Source: Geobacter sp. AOG2 (GTDB taxonomy: Bacteria > Desulfobacterota > Desulfuromonadia > Geobacterales > Pseudopelobacteraceae). From it: a stretch of DNA of 64,000 nt. Under the pieces are notes generated by a model that did not search any database, was not told the DNA's origin, and was given only the letters and a program-made list of their open reading frames with translations. A program made the position numbers and the translations under genes. This document shows positions 4,897 to 60,679 of the stretch, piece after piece (position 1 is the first letter of the stretch; each line of letters opens with the position of its first letter). The stretch spans positions 3,736,093 through 3,800,092 of the forward strand of contig NZ_BLJA01000001.1 in assembly GCF_019972295.1 (NCBI RefSeq), written 5' to 3'.

Positions 4897-5631
4897 ATGA
4901 TCCGAAGAACGTTTGACCCGGAGTTGGCGACCAAGATCGTTAGGGATGTCCCGCTGTTTTCCTGCTTCTCCCATGAGGAGATCGCGTCGTTGCTGGAGAA
5001 AGCCGCCATCTACAGCTACCACAAGGACGAGATCATCATCCATGCCGATGACCCTGCCAGGCGGATGTACATCATCCTCAAGGGGCGGGTCCGGGTTGTG
5101 GAGATCACGGCCGGCGGGGAGGAACGGGTAATGGCGTTCCGCCACCGCGGCGATTACTTCGGCGACATGGGGCTGCTGGACGGCAGGACCGATTTCGCCA
5201 CGGTGATCGCCATGGAACCGAGCAGGGTTCTGTTGATTTCCAAGGAGGCGTTCGACGAGTTGTTTCTGGACAACAACAAGGCGCTGCTCCAGGTTGTCGC
5301 CGTGCTCTGCCGACGCCTGCGGGAGAGTTGGCTCTTCCATAATATCATCGGGATAAACGATGCGGAGTCGAAGATCAGGGCAACCCTGGCCCATTACAGC
5401 ACGACCCTGGGGACGCAGGACAGTCACGGCGTGATCATCAATTCCGTCTTCTCGCAGCAGAGCATTGCCGACCGCGTCCAGATCACCCGCGAGACGGTGA
5501 CCAGGGTGTTGAGGAAGATGAAGGATCAGAACGAGATAGAGATGGTCGGGCGGCACTTCAAGCTGCTTCCCGTTTTTTTCGACAAGTACCGCCAGTCCCC
5601 GCTCTACAAGAACTTCACCGCGGACCGGTAA
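4897..5631 (+). CDS. Crp/Fnr-family transcriptional regulator
   Basis: 244 aa from ATG 4897, which has AAGGAG 6 bases upstream; an in-frame ATG at 4852 lies inside the palindrome and has no ribosome site. A cyclic-nucleotide-binding-type beta-barrel covers roughly residues 15-130 (RMYIILKGRVRVV, GDYFGDMGLLDG). A Crp-type winged helix follows at about 165-230, with recognition helix region QQSIADRVQITRETVTRVLRKM. The N-terminus lacks the cysteine cluster of true FNR, so this is not an FNR-type iron-sulfur sensor. The effector is unknown. Genes under its control cannot be identified here beyond possible self-control. Confidence 0.93.
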   Translation: MIRRTFDPELATKIVRDVPLFSCFSHEEIASLLEKAAIYSYHKDEIIIHADDPARRMYIILKGRVRVVEITAGGEERVMAFRHRGDYFGDMGLLDGRTDFATVIAMEPSRVLLISKEAFDELFLDNNKALLQVVAVLCRRLRESWLFHNIIGINDAESKIRATLAHYSTTLGTQDSHGVIINSVFSQQSIADRVQITRETVTRVLRKMKDQNEIEMVGRHFKLLPVFFDKYRQSPLYKNFTADR

Positions 5632-53521: not shown

Positions 53522-56500
53522 CTAAGCCTTCTCGATGTTGACGAGGAACGACTTAAACTCCGGCGTCTGGGTGTTGGCGTCCCCCACGAAGGGGGTCAGG
53601 ATGTTTGCCAGGTAGCCGCTCTTGGCCACCCCCTTGAAGCCCCAGTGGATCGGGATGCCCACGTGGTGGACGGTCTTGCCGTTCACCGTGAGGGGCTTGA
53701 TGCGCTTGGTCACCACCGCGACCGCCTTGATGAAGCCGCGGCTCGACCAGACCTTGACCCGGCCGCCGTCCTTGATCCCTTTTTCTTTGGCCAACTCCTC
53801 GCTGATCTCCACGAACTGCTCCGGCTGCATGATGGCAGACAGCCTGGTGTGCTTGGTCCAGAAGTGGAAGTGCTCGGTGAGGCGATAGGTGGTGGCGGCG
53901 TAGGGGAATTCCTTGCTCTTGCCGAAGGCCTCCAGGTCGCCCTTGAACACCCGCGCCGCCGGGTTGCTGATCACCTTCGGGTGCAGGGAGTTGGTGTCGA
54001 TGGGGGTCTCGAACGGCTCGTAGTGCTCGGGGAACGGTCCTTCCGCCATCTTGTCCAGGGCAAAGAGCCGCCCCGTCCCTTCCGGGAGCATGATGAAGGG
54101 GTTCATGTGGTCCGCGGGATCGGAATCCGGCTTGAAGTCGGGCACGTCGGCGCCGCCCCACTTGCTGCCGTCCCAGTACACCAGTCTGCGTTTCGGGTCC
54201 CACGGCTTTCCGGACAGGTCGCAGGAGGCGCGGTTGTACAGGACGCGCCGGTTGGCCGGCCAGGCAAAGGCCCAGTTGAGGGTGTTGCCCAGACCCGAGG
54301 GATCGTAATTGTCCCGTCGGGCCATCATGTTCCCCTTCTCCGTCCAGGCCCCCGAATAGAGCCAGCAGCCGCAGGAGGTGGAGCCGTCGTCCCTGAGTTG
54401 GGCGAAGCCGTCCAGCAGTTGGCCCTTTTTCACCAGGACCTTGGTCGGGTCCTTGGGATCGGCGAGATCGCCCAGGGCTTTGCCGTTGTACTCCTTGGCC
54501 AGCTCGTCGGGCGACGGGGCACGGGCAATGCTGTAGTTCCAGGTGAGGTTCAGGACCGGGTCGGGGAAGGCGCCCCCCTCCTTCTTGTACAGATCACGCA
54601 GCTTGAGGAAGATCCCGGCGATGATGTCGGCGTCGGGCAAGGCCTCTCCCGGCGGTTCGGCGCCCTTGTAATGCCATTGCAGCCAGCGCCCGGAGTTGGT
54701 GAGGGAGCCGTTCTCCTCGGCAAAGCAGGTGGAGGGGAGACGGATCACCTCGGTCTGGATCTTGGCCGGGTCCACGTCGTTGTATTCGCCGTGGTTCTCC
54801 CAGAAACACGAGGTCTCCGTGGCCAGGGGATCGATCACCACCAGGTACTTCAACTGGGACATGCCCTGGATCAGCTTGGCCTTGTTCGGGATCGAGGCCA
54901 GGGGGTTGAAGCCCTGGCAGATGTAGCCGTTCAGCTTGCCCTGGTGCATCAGTTCGAACACCTGGAGCACGTCGTATACCTTGTCCAGCTTGGGCAACCA
55001 GTCGTAACACCAGTTGTTCTCTTTGGTCGCCGCGTCGCCGAACCAGGACTTCATCAGGCTGACGTGGAACTTGCCGTAGTTCTGCCAGTAGGACATCTGG
55101 CCGGGGCGCAACGGCTTGAGAGCCCGCTTGTCGATGTAACCCTGGTAGTCGGTCTCCTTTTCACCCGGCAGGGTGAGGTAGCCGGGCAGGAGGTTGGACA
55201 AGAGCCCCAGGTCGGTGAGACCCTGGATGTTGGAGTGGCCGCGCAGGGCGTTCACCCCGCCTCCCGCCATGCCGACGTTGCCCAGGAGGAGTTGCACCAT
55301 GGCCGCGGTGCGGATCATCTGCGAACCCACCGAATGCTGGGTCCAGCCCAGGGCGTACATGAAGGTCAGGGTGCGGTCGGGCGCCGAGGTGGTGGCGATG
55401 GTCTCGCACACCTTGAGGAAGGCGTCCTTGGGGGTACCGCAGATGTTGCTCACCGCCTCCGGCGTGTAGCGGGAGTAGTGCTGCTTGAGCAGTTGCAGCA
55501 CGCAGCGGGGGTGCTGCAGGGTCTCGTCCACCTTGGCGAAGCCGTCCGGGCCGATTTCGTAGGACCAGGTGGCCTTGTCGTACTTGCGCGCCGGTTCGTC
55601 GTAGCCCGAGAACAGGCCTTCGTCGAACCGGTAGCCCTCGTTGATGATGAAGGAGGCATTGGTGTAGGACTTGACGTATTCGTGCTGGATTTTGTCGTGG
55701 GAGAGCAGGTAGTTGATCACGCCGCCCAGGAACGCGATGTCCGTGCCGGTGCGCAGGGGCGCGTAGAAGTCCGCCACCGATGCCGAGCGGGTGAAGCGGG
55801 GGTCCACCACGATGAAGGTGGCGTGGTTGTGGGCCTTGGCCTCGGTCACCCATTTGAAGCCGCAGGGGTGAGCCTCGGCGGCGTTGCCGCCCATGACGAC
55901 GATGACGTTGGCGTTCTTGATATCTACCCAATGGTTGGTCATTGCACCGCGACCGAATGTGGGGGCCAAACTGGCCACCGTTGGTCCGTGTCAGACCCGG
56001 GCCTGATTATCGAACGCCAGGATCCCCAGGTTGCGGATGACCTTGTGGGTGATGTAACCGGACTCGTTGCTGGAGGCGGAGGCCGCCAGGAAGCCGGTGG
56101 TCACCCAGCGGTTGACCGTGGCGCCGGCGGCGTTCTTGGCGATGAAGTTCTTGTCCCGGTCGTCCTTCATCAGCCGCGCCACCCTGGTGAACGCCTCATC
56201 CCAGGAGATGCGCTGCCATTCTTTGGAGCCGGGGGCGCGGTATTCCGGGAACTTGAGGCGGCTTTCGCTGTGGATGAAGTCCACCAGCCCCGCGCCCTTG
56301 GGGCAGAGGGTGCCGCGGTTCACCGGATGGTCCGGGTCCCCCTCGATGTGGAAGATCGCCGGCTCGGCGTTTTTCGCCCGGTCTCCCAGGCTGTGCATGA
56401 TCAGGCCGCAGCTTACCGAGCAATAGGGACAGGTGTTGCGGGTCTCGCTGCTGCGGGCCAACTTGAATTCACGCACCTCGGCACGCGCAACGGAAGGTGA

Positions 56501-56578
56501 GAAGCCCAGCATCGCAATGCTGGAACCCCCCAATCCCCCGGCGGAGAATTTGAAAAATTGCCTTCGTGTTATTTGCAT
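53522..56578 (-). CDS. fdnG: Formate dehydrogenase alpha subunit, selenocysteine-containing, Tat-exported
   Basis: 1018 aa if the in-frame TGA at 55993-55991 is read as selenocysteine (residue 196); E. coli FdnG is 1015 aa with Sec at the same residue. ATG 56578 follows AAGGAGGG. Tat signal RRQFFK (5-10). [4Fe-4S] ligands CPYCSVSC and a later CPKGAG cysteine. The Sec region reads ARV-Sec-HGPTVASLAPTFGRGAMTNHW, as in E. coli. Residues 200-1018 form the molybdopterin domains. It oxidises periplasmic formate to CO2. Reading it as two broken genes would be an error. Confidence 0.97.
55959..55993 (-). promoter_or_regulatory. Selenocysteine codon with SECIS-like hairpin
   Basis: UGA (55993-55991) is followed 11 bases later by a hairpin (55979-55959): GGCC-AGTTT-GGCC with an outer GTG/CAC pairing and a two-base bulge. 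E. coli fdnG has the same 11-base distance and also a GU in the apical loop, the part bound by SelB. Confidence 0.8.
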
Positions 56579-56661
56579 GTTTGACCCTCCTTGGTTCGTT
56601 GTCTGTATGGTCAATAGCTTCCCGATGTCCCGACTGGGGTGGTTCATTCAACGATTTAAAG

Positions 56662-56772: not shown

Positions 56773-56800
56773 TTGCATTTTCCACTATAAGTATTATAAT
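56773..56800 (+). promoter_or_regulatory. Promoter of the histone-like/polyphosphate cluster
   Basis: TTGCAT (56773-56778), 16-base spacer, consensus TATAAT (56795-56800). It gives a leader of about 100 bases before ATG 56906. Confidence 0.75.
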
Positions 56801-56905
56801 TATAATAGTTATTATATGATGATGTATGCCGCTATGAAAGTTGTTGAAAATACTGCACAACTGCCGATGCGGCAGTTTCAGATACCCGTGAACGAGGAGA
56901 AGACC

Positions 56906-57310
56906 ATGAAAGATGAAAAGCCGAAACCGGCCGCCGTGAAACCTCTTGCAACGGAGACACCGGACAAGGACGCCGCAGCGAAGAAAAAGAAAAAAAACAA
57001 AAAGGCAGAAGAAGCGGCGGCAGCGGCTCCCAAGGTAAAAAAAGCAAAGCCGGAGAAAGCCGCCGGGAAGGCTGCCGAGCCGAAGGCCTCCAAGGCCGAG
57101 AAAGCACCGAAGGCTCCCAAGGCTCCCAAGGCGGCGAAGGAGGACAAGCCGACCAAGTTCCTGGTGAGCATGAAAAAATCGGTGCGCAAGAGCGTTAAAA
57201 AAGAGGCTGCCGAGGCCGGCATCAGCATGAATGAATTCATCGTCCTGGCGGTGGAGGAAAAGCTGGGCAAGATCCCCCAGGCCGCCAATGGGGCTTCCAA
57301 AAAGCCGTGA
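56906..57310 (+). CDS. Lysine-rich histone-H1-like protein with ribbon-helix-helix domain
   Basis: 134 aa from ATG 56906 with GAGGAG 6 bases upstream. Residues 1-82 are a disordered Lys/Ala/Pro tail, with a KKKKKNKK run (26-33) and repeats of APK (67-75). Residues 83-122 form a ribbon-helix-helix DNA-binding fold: strand TKFLVSM, helix KKSVRKSVKKEAAEAG, turn ISMNEFI, helix VLAVEEKLGKI. Tails of this kind are found in AlgP and PhaM, which link polymer granules to DNA. It is first in a cluster of polyphosphate-related genes; a role in attaching granules to the nucleoid is inferred. Confidence 0.82.
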   Translation: MKDEKPKPAAVKPLATETPDKDAAAKKKKKNKKAEEAAAAAPKVKKAKPEKAAGKAAEPKASKAEKAPKAPKAPKAAKEDKPTKFLVSMKKSVRKSVKKEAAEAGISMNEFIVLAVEEKLGKIPQAANGASKKP

Positions 57311-57412
57311 TCCGCACCGGACGCGCCCCTGCTTTTGTGGTAAAATTGCCGGTGTTGGATCGTGACGGCGGTGGGCAGCCCAGCTTCGGAGTGCCGGCCA
57401 CGGGAGGGTGGG

Positions 57413-58960
57413 GTGTACGGTAAGGAATCGGTTCGTTTGACGCTCCCCGGCGATCTTGGGCCGGAATGCCTGCGGGAGGAGTGGGATGTGGAGTTCCACC
57501 CGCAGGAGTCCCGGACCTTGACGTTTTGGGATACGTTCGAGTGGGGCCTGTGGTTCGGCGGGCATGTCCTGTACAGCTCCGACGGGGTGTATCGCCTGTG
57601 CGTCCGCGAGGATGGCTGGCCGGGGGCGACGGTGTGCGAGGAGCGGGCCGGTGGCGGACGGCGGTTCTGGCATGACTTCGGGACCGGGGTCATGCGGACC
57701 GCGCTGAGGGGGATGCTCGGGCTGCGGGGGCTCGCGCCGGTGGCGGAGGGGATCTTTCGCCTGCGCCGGTGCGACCTGCGCAATGAAACGGGGAAGATCG
57801 TCTGCCGCCTGGAGTGGTCTACGGTCTCCTCCGGCACGCGGGGAGAGGATGCTCTGCTCCACTCCTGCCGGGTCATGCCGCTTGTGGGCTACGAAGCGGA
57901 AGCCGTACGGGTGGCGGAACTCCTCATCCGGCGCGGGGCGCGCACCTCCGGGGACGGCCCGGTGGCGGCCCTGCTGCGCCTTGCCGGACGCGTGCCCCGA
58001 AAGTACACCCTGCGGCCGGTCTTCGGCCTGGAGACGGACACGCCCGCCCGTGAGGCCGTAGGAAGGATCGTACGCTCGATCCTGGAGATCGCCGAAGGAA
58101 ACGTGCCGGGGCTTCTGGAGGATCTGGACACGGAGTTTCTCCACGATTACCGGATCTGCCTGCGGAAGGTCCGCTCGGTGCTGAGCCTGGTGAAGGGCGT
58201 GTATCCGGCCGGGGAGACCGCGCGCATGCGCACGATCCTGGGCGACCTGGCCCGGCAGACCAACCGGCTGCGCGATCTGGACGTGTACCTCCTGGCGCGG
58301 GACGAATACCTGGGGCTGTTGCCCCCCGCGCTCCGTCCGGCCCTGGACGGGATGTTCGCGGATTTTTCGGCGGAGCGGGAACGGGAGGTGCGGCGCATGG
58401 CCGCGAAGCTGCGCTCCGCATCCACCCGACGGCTTCTCCGGGAGGTGGAGGAGTTCTTCTCCGCCTCTGCCCTCCATGAACCCACGGAGGCTGCCGACCT
58501 TCCCGTGGGGCCGTTGGCCTTTCGCCGCATCTACAGACGTTACCGCAAGATCCGCGGGATGGCGGCCGGGATCGGGGCGGAGACGCCCGATGAGGCGGTG
58601 CACCGGCTCCGTATCGAGTGCAAGAAGCTCCGCTATCTCATGGAGTTTTTCGACGAACTCATTCCGAGGGAGGAGGGGGCCAGGATGCTGGGGTTGTTGC
58701 GGCGCCTGCAAAACCGGCTCGGCGAGTTCAACGACGCCCTGGTGCAGCAGAAATCCCTGATGAGCTATGGGGAACGGAAACGGCCCGGTTCCCAAGCCGC
58801 CCTGGGGGTGGGGGGACTCGTGGCGGTCCTCTACCGCCGGCAGCAGGAGGCGCGCGGTCAGATCGAAAAGGCCCTGGAGGGCTTCTGCGGCGGCGCCACG
58901 GCCGCGCTCTTCAGGCGCACCTTCAAGCCCGGCGGGGCTTCCGCCGCACAACAGACGTGA
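57413..58960 (+). CDS. CHAD-domain protein with degenerate CYTH-like N-terminus
   Basis: 515 aa from GTG 57413, which has GGAGG 5 bases upstream; another in-frame GTG at 57362 lacks one. The C-terminal CHAD domain (about 212-505) has both helical halves with basic motifs HDYRICLRKVR (H244, R247, K252, R254) and HRLRIECKKLR (H397, R400, K404, R407) that bind polyphosphate. Residues 5-180 resemble a CYTH tunnel domain but lack the catalytic ExExK motif, so it is likely non-catalytic. CHAD proteins locate to polyphosphate granules in other bacteria. Confidence 0.88.
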   Translation: MYGKESVRLTLPGDLGPECLREEWDVEFHPQESRTLTFWDTFEWGLWFGGHVLYSSDGVYRLCVREDGWPGATVCEERAGGGRRFWHDFGTGVMRTALRGMLGLRGLAPVAEGIFRLRRCDLRNETGKIVCRLEWSTVSSGTRGEDALLHSCRVMPLVGYEAEAVRVAELLIRRGARTSGDGPVAALLRLAGRVPRKYTLRPVFGLETDTPAREAVGRIVRSILEIAEGNVPGLLEDLDTEFLHDYRICLRKVRSVLSLVKGVYPAGETARMRTILGDLARQTNRLRDLDVYLLARDEYLGLLPPALRPALDGMFADFSAEREREVRRMAAKLRSASTRRLLREVEEFFSASALHEPTEAADLPVGPLAFRRIYRRYRKIRGMAAGIGAETPDEAVHRLRIECKKLRYLMEFFDELIPREEGARMLGLLRRLQNRLGEFNDALVQQKSLMSYGERKRPGSQAALGVGGLVAVLYRRQQEARGQIEKALEGFCGGATAALFRRTFKPGGASAAQQT

Positions 58961-58976
58961 AAAGGCCGGCACGACC

Positions 58977-59729
58977 ATGAAAATACTCTCTTCATACAGC
59001 ATCAAAGGCGGGGTGGGGAAGACGGCCCTGGCGGTCAACCTGGCGTTCGCCTTCCGGGAGGCGGGGCGCAGGACCCTGCTCCTGGACCTGGACCCCCAGG
59101 GGGCCGCCACCTTCTATTTCCGGGTGGCCAGCGCGGAGAAGTTCCGCATGCGCGACGCCGGTTCCCTGGCCGAGGGGCTCCGCAGGAACATCCGGGAGTC
59201 CGACTTCCCCGGCCTGGACATCGTCCCCTCCAACCTGGGCTACCGGCACTTCGACATCCTGCTCGACGGCATGGCCAAGCGCCGCCGCCAGCTCCGCAAG
59301 GTGCTGGAGGAGTTCAAACCCGATTACGACGTGATCCTCATGGATTGCCCGCCGAACATCACGCTGCTCTCGGAAAACGTGTTCCGGACGTCGGACGCCA
59401 TCCTGGTGCCGGTCATCCCTACCGTGCTCTCCCGGCGGACGCTCGAACAGTTGGCCGGATTCTTCCGGGACGAGGAGTTGCCCGGCGGCCTGCTCCGCCC
59501 GTTTTTCTCCATGGTCCAGAAGCGGAACAGGATGCACCGGGAGATCATGGACGAGCTTCCGGCGGAATATCCCGGCTTCCTGGAGACGGTAATCCCGTTC
59601 TCCGCCGACGTGGAGAAGATGGGCCTGCACCGGATGCCGCTTCTGGCCTATTCCCGCGCCTGCGCGGCGGCCGTGGCCTACCGGGCGCTGTGCGACGAAA
59701 TCCTTTCCCTGTCCGGTTCGCGGCCATGA
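58977..59729 (+). CDS. ParA/MinD-family ATPase
   Basis: 250 aa from ATG 58977. Deviant Walker A KGGVGKTAL (about 10-18), Walker A' LDLDPQGAATFYF and Walker B VILMDCPPN are present. No partner parB gene and no parS are seen. Solitary ParA proteins of this kind position cargo such as carboxysomes, chemoreceptor clusters or storage granules over the nucleoid. Its stop overlaps the CYTH-Nudix start by ATGA; the CHAD gene ends 16 bases upstream. A polyphosphate granule is the likely cargo. Confidence 0.9.
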   Translation: MKILSSYSIKGGVGKTALAVNLAFAFREAGRRTLLLDLDPQGAATFYFRVASAEKFRMRDAGSLAEGLRRNIRESDFPGLDIVPSNLGYRHFDILLDGMAKRRRQLRKVLEEFKPDYDVILMDCPPNITLLSENVFRTSDAILVPVIPTVLSRRTLEQLAGFFRDEELPGGLLRPFFSMVQKRNRMHREIMDELPAEYPGFLETVIPFSADVEKMGLHRMPLLAYSRACAAAVAYRALCDEILSLSGSRP

Positions 59730-60574
59730 TCGAGATCGAGCGGAAATTCCTGGTAACGTCCCTGCCCGCCGGAATGGGGGGCGGGACGCCGATCCTGCAA
59801 GGGTATCTGGCCTACGAGGAACACCTGGAGGTGCGCATCCGCCAGTACGGCGACAAGCACTTCCTGACCGTCAAGGAGGGGCCGGGGCTCTTGCGGCGGG
59901 AGACCGAGATCGAGATCACCCTCAACCAGTTCCGCGCCCTGTGGCCGTCCACCGAGGGGCGGCGTCTGGAAAAGGTGCGCTTCCTGGCCCAACACGGCCC
60001 GTACCGGGTGGCGGTGGACCGTTACCAGGGAGACCTGGAACCGCTGCTGGTCGCCAAGGTGGGGTTTGCCTCGGTGGAGGAGAGCGAACTGTTCCGGCAG
60101 CCGGACTACCTGGGGCAGGAGATCACGGACGTGGAGGCCTACAAGAGCATCTCCCTCGCCATCCACGGCATCCCCGGCCCGGCCCTGGAATACCAGATCG
60201 GCGCGCTCCCCTTCCTGTTCCGCGGCGGGCGTTTGCACCTGGTGATCGTTACCAATACCGCCCAGACCCGCTGGATCATCCCCAAAGGGCAGCCGGAGCC
60301 GGATATGTCCCGGCAGGACGTGGCCGTCATGGAGGCCATGGAGGAGGCCGGGGTCATCGGCAACTGTCTCCCCGGATTCCGCGTGCTCTGTCAGCGCAAG
60401 GGGGAGAAGACGCTTTATGTCTATCCGCTGAAGGTCACGACCCTGCTGAAGAAGTGGCCGGAGATGGAATGGCGCAAGCGCGCGGTGCTGCCCCTCAACA
60501 AGGCCCTGAAGATGATCAGCGACCCGGACCTCGCCCAGTGCCTCCAGCGCCTGGCCTCCCGCCTGGTTGCCTGA
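59726..60574 (+). CDS. CYTH-Nudix fusion protein
   Basis: 282 aa from ATG 59726. CYTH domain (about 1-145) with the intact metal motif EIERK (ExExK, residues 3-7) and VRIRQYGDKHFLTVKEG, LEKVRF, VAVDRYQGDL; such domains hydrolyse triphosphate or polyphosphate. A Nudix domain (about 165-275) has WIIPKGQPEPDMSRQDVAVMEAMEEAGV, near the diphosphoinositol-polyphosphate hydrolase type; the usual first Glu and the Arg of the Nudix box are Met, while the EAMEEAG core remains. The two activities in one chain suggest a polyphosphate or diadenosine-polyphosphate hydrolase. Confidence 0.88.
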   Translation: MIEIERKFLVTSLPAGMGGGTPILQGYLAYEEHLEVRIRQYGDKHFLTVKEGPGLLRRETEIEITLNQFRALWPSTEGRRLEKVRFLAQHGPYRVAVDRYQGDLEPLLVAKVGFASVEESELFRQPDYLGQEITDVEAYKSISLAIHGIPGPALEYQIGALPFLFRGGRLHLVIVTNTAQTRWIIPKGQPEPDMSRQDVAVMEAMEEAGVIGNCLPGFRVLCQRKGEKTLYVYPLKVTTLLKKWPEMEWRKRAVLPLNKALKMISDPDLAQCLQRLASRLVA

Positions 60575-60634: not shown

Positions 60635-60679
60635 CATGGGATTTATGGGACTTATAGGACTTATAGGACTTATGGGACC
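60635..60679. repeat. Repeat family C: GGACTTATA array
   Basis: Five consecutive copies of a 9-base unit (GGGATTTAT, GGGACTTAT, AGGACTTAT twice, AGGACTTAT-GGGACC) at 60638-60679. It matches the array at 39576-39674. It lies between the CYTH-Nudix gene and the cytochrome gene. Confidence 0.8.

Follow-up and report, generated by a model that had tools for sequence, protein, structure and literature searches.

A conserved CHAD–ParA gene pair at a Geobacter sp. AOG2 locus and in other phyla suggests a ParA-type system for positioning polyphosphate granules

Type Ib plasmid partition systems (ParF/ParG, delta/omega) combine a small ParA, an RHH protein with a basic N-terminal tail, and promoter iterons, and their RHH partners act as activators of ParA. 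Polyphosphate is a bacterial phosphate store, and ATPases of the ParA type distribute cargo within the cell. BcsQ, a ParA-family protein in cellulose synthesis, has a non-transport role. In the positioning of carboxysomes by McdA/McdB, a ParA/MinD ATPase on the nucleoid works with a cargo-bound partner encoded nearby (PMC6328274). The spacing of polyphosphate granules in Pseudomonas aeruginosa involves AlgP (PMC9239181). A 2025 review describes AlgP with a DNA-binding H1-like domain at its C-terminus and without a ParA; it leaves open whether granule positioning depends on ATP and assigns no ParA-type protein to the process (PMC13052382). The CHAD protein of Chlorobaculum tepidum (CtCHAD) has been crystallised with polyphosphate (6QVA; PMC6537752); it was studied as an isolated binding domain, and no discussion of ParA was found in the text of that paper. 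The only prior notice found is a 2024 paper on copper resistance, in which a folD-ppk-parA-CHAD cluster is noted as conserved in Acidithiobacillus (PMC10892726); the passages on it mention no positioning hypothesis, RHH, iterons or CYTH-Nudix. A literature search, whose cover excluded subscription papers and preprints, returned no described ParA–polyphosphate system. The view of the initial annotation that no four-part system of this kind had been described is qualified by this earlier sighting of ppk, parA and CHAD together in Acidithiobacillus.

The window analysed here is a stretch of 64,000 nucleotides from Geobacter sp. AOG2 (contig NZ_BLJA01000001.1, positions 3,736,093 to 3,800,092). 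Four plus-strand genes, all of them present as initially annotated, were found at 56773-60574 by inspection of the sequence and its open reading frames, preceded by a repeat array that had been missed:

56783..56816, + strand: TATWATA heptad array with 9-bp spacing (repeat search, TRF and pattern scan)
56906..57310, + strand: RHH protein, 134 aa (ATG start; 56816 also open)
57413..58960, + strand: TTM-CHAD protein, 515 aa (GTG start; 57362 also open)
58977..59729, + strand: ParA-type ATPase, 250 aa (Pfam AAA_31, 2e-33)
59726..60574, + strand: CYTH-Nudix fusion, 282 aa (ATG start; CYTH/TTM followed by a Nudix domain)

For the RHH gene, the ATG at 56906 is preferred over 56816 because of its SD sequence (gaggag) and because homologues begin there; the GTG at 57413 is preferred over 57362 for the CHAD gene on the same grounds (SD gggagg; relatives likewise). 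The CHAD stop at 58960 and the ParA start at 58977 leave a gap of exactly 16 bases, and the ParA and CYTH-Nudix genes overlap by ATGA (59726-59729), both as initially annotated. In most relatives, the CHAD and ParA genes themselves overlap by 4 bp. From this spacing and the 4-bp overlaps, we infer that CHAD and ParA are co-transcribed. No ppk, ppx, or phoU gene adjoins the module within the window; the genome has a single CHAD gene and two ppk1 genes, both of the latter away from the module. On the minus strand at 53522-56647, an in-frame TGA splits a formate dehydrogenase alpha subunit gene (QARV-U-HGPTV) and is interpreted as encoding selenocysteine, and just 3' of the CYTH-Nudix gene lies a tandem 9-bp repeat, ATGGGACTT, in 4.8 copies (60636-60678).

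The gene order is kept within Geobacterales, as the initial annotation had proposed to check. Twenty distinct loci were collected from a set of 117 genomes of the order and from named records. Except for one, they carry the label of Geobacterales or of a family within it; the exception comes from a MAG labelled Akkermansia, probably through mis-binning of the contig. CHAD-ParA-CYTH-Nudix is found in 18 of the 20. The long CHAD and the CYTH-Nudix fusion are always found together, in 13 of the 117 genomes (Fisher 2e-17), with a gap of ParA length between them wherever both lie on one contig. ParA is complete in 12 of these 13 genomes; in the other (G057, locus L074), all that is left of it between CHAD and CYTH-Nudix, the latter intact, are remnants of its N- and C-terminal ends. 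At another locus (L088), ParA is missing between CHAD and CYTH-Nudix, so the persistence of both genes at L074 and L088 suggests that the enzymes may act without ParA. The MAG carrying L088, whose Akkermansia label looks wrong, has two module copies with complementary losses: its other locus (L247) has an intact CHAD-ParA pair and a truncated CYTH-Nudix. The patchy distribution of the module in the order points to transfer or repeated loss. Ten of the 20 loci have a gene for PPK1, Ppx, or PhoU, or another CHAD gene, no more than about 10 kb away. Polyamine genes (carboxynorspermidine synthase nspC, Orn/DAP- or arginine-type decarboxylases) adjoin the module in eight of the 20 (L064, L065, L070, L078, L080, L082, L084, and L087); a link between polyamines and polyphosphate is possible.

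The structure model of the TTM-CHAD protein (pLDDT, 85.6) comprises two domains. The CHAD domain spans about residues 198-508 (Pfam E, 2e-50, above the cut-off), and superposes closely on CtCHAD (6QV7; Z-score, 35.2; root-mean-squared deviation, 1.8 over 311 residues). The N-terminal part (residues 2-191, ~190 residues), which the initial annotation did not mention, has a CYTH/TTM fold with a Z-score of about 12.8 against TTM enzymes; in none of the 18 CHAD sequences aligned does this part contain the ExExK motif found in active TTM enzymes, and the domain is degenerate. As a reference for polyphosphate binding, we took the twelve CtCHAD positions whose mutation weakened binding (PMC6537752). 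Seven of these (His244, Arg247, Arg251, Arg287, Arg407, Tyr408, and Arg430 in the window protein, the last being a Lys, K441, in CtCHAD) are invariant in the 18 sequences, three more are basic in the window protein, and two (Gly427 and Tyr374) are not. Judged by sequence, the CHAD domain of the window protein is thus of the intact polyphosphate-binding type. The protein further resembles CtCHAD in TTM-CHAD length, domain order, and polyphosphate contacts, with 36% identity over the CHAD part.

The CYTH part of the CYTH-Nudix protein scores 22.2 with Pfam, just under the cut-off of 23.2, and matches the CYTH protein NE1496 in the PDB (3typ/2fbl) at 3e-31; among 20 homologues aligned, ExExK (EIERK in the window) is present in every one except that of L088. 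The Nudix domain (about residues 151-282) is just above the Pfam cut-off. The full Nudix box GX5EX7REUXEEXGU is interrupted at two standard residues, where Met194 replaces the first Glu and Met202 the Arg, the core Glu-Glu being kept. The nearest PDB relative of this part is DIPP3-alpha (8.5e-9). The assignment as a DIPP-type Nudix enzyme is weakened accordingly, resting on nearest PDB matches with two residues of the box replaced.

No other member of the module is as well conserved as ParA: relatives share 76-94% identity with the window protein (mean identity per column, 86%), as against 47-78% for CHAD, and dN/dS against the nearest relative is about 0.07. ParA contains the deviant Walker A motif with the signature lysine (xKGGxxKT) and the Walker A' and B aspartates; these active-site motifs are invariant in 18 sequences, Lys10, Lys15, Asp37, Asp39, and Asp123 are invariant in all 37 CHAD-linked ParAs, and Arg183 is retained in 34 of the 37. 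The folds nearest to the ParA model are those of partition ParA/Soj proteins (Z-score, about 25), with lower scores for Cyanothece McdA (6nop; Z-score, 23) and for BcsQ, a related ParA-family fold (Z-score, about 22). In a tree of 73 ParA sequences, the subfamily is separated from chromosomal Soj with full support, and linkage to CHAD requires 3 changes, as against 24.7 in shuffles. A signature, FYFR, occupies residues 46-49, and its Arg49 is found in 37 of 37 CHAD-linked sequences versus 8 of 36 others; this residue is a candidate contact with CHAD.

The CHAD–ParA adjacency recurs in at least three bacterial phyla, and it is this pair, not the four-gene set, that is the conserved core. In a wider sample of the phylum, all 11 ParA relatives from elsewhere (44-50% identity) are encoded directly after a CHAD gene, often with CYTH, Nudix, and SixA genes downstream and, in three cases, with PPK1 adjacent. 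Among the best 30 ParA matches in Pseudomonadota, six are CHAD-linked. Six Paracoccus plasmids carry the pair; RHH-CHAD-ParA-CYTH-NUDIX is annotated on four of these six, with CYTH and NUDIX as separate genes in the place of the fusion. The ParA of P. liaowanqingii appears frameshifted, some module members are unannotated or altered on the two KGP plasmids, and one plasmid has the cluster beside phoB. No CHAD is annotated with the plasmid ParA matches of Marinobacter, Pontibacter, and Sphingomonas, and the Halomonas plasmid match is an unannotated record in which 100 bases upstream of ParA were read. In a sample of 395 genomes drawn around a Flavobacterium genome, so that the counts largely reflect one clade and are phylogenetically non-independent, 81 genomes have a long CHAD, 88 have ParA, and 79 have both; the two genes are adjacent at 72 loci, and ParA directly follows CHAD in 28 of the 30 loci examined. 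Genes for PPK1, Ppx, PhoU, or SixA are frequent near the pairs.

The same sample contains the C. tepidum genome (G912), whose CHAD is identical over 315 residues to the crystallised protein (PDB 3E0S/6QV7/6QVA). In that genome, ppk1 is followed by the gene for a repeat protein of 265 aa and then by CHAD and parA; parA begins 2 bp after CHAD, directly downstream as in the window, and encodes a protein with 49% identity to the window ParA. A CHAD protein proven to bind polyphosphate is therefore itself parA-linked. Polyphosphate is very probably the cargo or ligand of the system. The 265-aa protein between ppk1 and CHAD (L288, 5674-6471 in ParA-strand orientation) is leucine-rich-repeat-like, and a gene of similar size takes its place in L289. 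At L175, the gene directly upstream of ppk1-CHAD-parA (5348-5620, ParA-strand orientation) encodes a protein of 90 aa that combines a zinc-ribbon-like part containing cysteines with a tail very rich in lysine.

Conceivably, the locus is simply an operon of phosphate metabolism; ParA would then do something unrelated, and its place beside CHAD would be inherited but non-functional. ParA paralogues of the same subfamily do adjoin unrelated genes in Pseudomonadota: members without CHAD lie beside varied genes (L202-L228), and 13 CHAD-unlinked neighbourhoods contain no PPK1, Ppx, SixA, or CHAD in up to about 6 kb on each side. This explanation nevertheless appears improbable, as three phyla retain the adjacency, in many cases with overlaps of 4 bp, no gene of the module is under tighter constraint than ParA, and the invariant residue of CHAD-linked ParAs is not kept in the others. 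A stronger alternative, although still an unlikely one, is that ParA serves as an ATP-dependent regulator or assembly factor that controls or recruits PPK1, CHAD, or CYTH and leaves the granules unmoved. The presence of PPK1, Ppx, SixA, CYTH, and Nudix genes in the operons, the non-transport role of the structurally related BcsQ, and the two loci that keep CHAD and CYTH-Nudix without ParA all speak for such a regulator; the nearest folds are nonetheless those of partition proteins, and the full active site is kept. Moreover, PPK1 is often not adjacent to ParA but CHAD is, which points to the polymer-binding protein as the partner of ParA. We consider it rather more likely than not that ParA positions or partitions polyphosphate.

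The RHH gene behaves differently from the CHAD–ParA core and is an optional member of the module. Its product has an N-terminal tail of 82 residues rich in Lys, Ala, and Pro (26 Lys; net charge, +14), followed by a C-terminal RHH-like domain that is conserved in the alignment and whose profile matches are weak (Arc/HicB/RHH_1; E, 4e-4 to 1e-2, all under the cut-off); the operator-like repeats described below lend the assignment support. Strong RHH matches occur in 8 of the 13 module-bearing genomes of the order versus none of the 104 others. RHH is absent from all 11 other CHAD–ParA loci of the phylum and from four of the six Pseudomonadota genome loci, and no hidden RHH was detected by profile in the RHH-free loci. 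At L064 (~1686-2042, ParA-strand orientation), the tail is expanded to KALKEP hexapeptide repeats, similar in style to those of AlgP.

The array upstream of the RHH gene consists of three exact TATWATA cores at 56792, 56801, and 56810, and a degenerate one at 56783; the chance expectation for it in the window is 0 by pattern scan. It contains most of a promoter-like match (56779-56806), which the initial annotation had taken for a consensus promoter; the match agrees at 10 of 12 positions, and the pattern is matched three times in the region against 0.6 expected. Allowing up to two mismatches, the array has one site in the 3.9-Mb genome, at this operon's own promoter. A TATWATA array with 9-bp spacing lies upstream of the RHH gene in all 11 Geobacterales loci with RHH and is absent from all eight without it, two of which are near contig ends (Fisher 1.3e-5). 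In the Paracoccus loci, a tandem TGACATCA/TGACGTCA site is found at the equivalent position. We propose that 56783..56816 is the operator or par-like site of the RHH protein.

These features prompt comparison with type Ib partition, in which, as in the window's clade, RHH, iterons, and a small ParA occur together. The module might accordingly be a DNA partition cassette, with RHH bound to the iterons as a centromere, ParA segregating DNA, and the phosphate genes as passengers; besides the type Ib layout, the occurrence of the module on Paracoccus plasmids and the strict association of RHH with iterons fit such a cassette. This reading is very improbable: the combination of RHH, iterons, and small ParA is not general among CHAD–ParA loci, most of which are without RHH, ParA follows CHAD and not RHH across phyla, a CHAD gene stands between RHH and ParA, and the window genome has a single chromosomal array, at its own promoter. 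The earlier suggestion that the RHH protein is an H1-like general DNA tether is likewise weakened by its absence from most CHAD–ParA loci outside one clade and by the single promoter array that it tracks. AlgP and the proposed window system share polyphosphate granules and a lysine-rich protein, which is H1-like in AlgP; here, the basic tail is N-terminal and precedes an RHH-like domain, in contrast to the C-terminal H1-like domain of AlgP, and the protein is an optional member. Because RHH is patchy and tracks promoter iterons that occur once in the window genome, an operon regulator or par-site binder fits better than a tether, and the protein is rather more likely than not to be mainly an operon regulator. 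A role in granule tethering is possible but is not supported by the data.

Taken together, the locus is probably one form of a widespread polyphosphate–ParA system, in which CHAD would act as an adaptor and ParA would position or partition granules on the nucleoid. The CHAD protein would coat polyphosphate granules or the nascent polymer via its basic pore, and ATP-bound ParA dimers would sit on the nucleoid. CHAD may recruit ParA and stimulate its ATPase, perhaps through the inactive TTM domain of CHAD and the FYFR-bearing surface of ParA; a diffusion ratchet like that of McdAB would then space the granules or distribute them when the cell divides. The CYTH-Nudix protein would trim the ends of polyphosphate or oligophosphate. 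Where present, RHH would bind the promoter iterons and control the operon, and its lysine-rich tail may sense polyphosphate or serve as a second activator of ParA. Like McdAB, this scheme pairs a nucleoid ParA-type ATPase with a nearby-encoded cargo partner, as deduced here from the genes; unlike McdAB, its cargo would be polyphosphate and its partner a large TTM-CHAD protein in place of the small McdB. The fuller proposal, a widespread ATP-driven machine for positioning or partitioning granules, in which CHAD links a specialised subfamily of ParA to the cargo and a clade-specific RHH repressor couples expression to polyphosphate through the affinity of its tail, has in our estimate an even chance of being correct. 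The initial idea that CHAD coats granules and ParA moves them remains a sound inference, and the interpretation built on it is supported in part, by the conserved order, by the CHAD–ParA linkage in three phyla, and by the parA linkage of CtCHAD; its RHH tether, its DIPP-type Nudix, and its view that no such system had been described are not supported or need qualification.

The conserved CHAD–ParA pair makes the idea accessible to experiment, with one specified gene for deletion and two specified proteins for combination in vitro. Its occurrence in at least three phyla suggests that active placement of phosphate granules takes place in many bacteria; if this is true, an inorganic polymer granule would join the list of cargoes of ParA ATPases.
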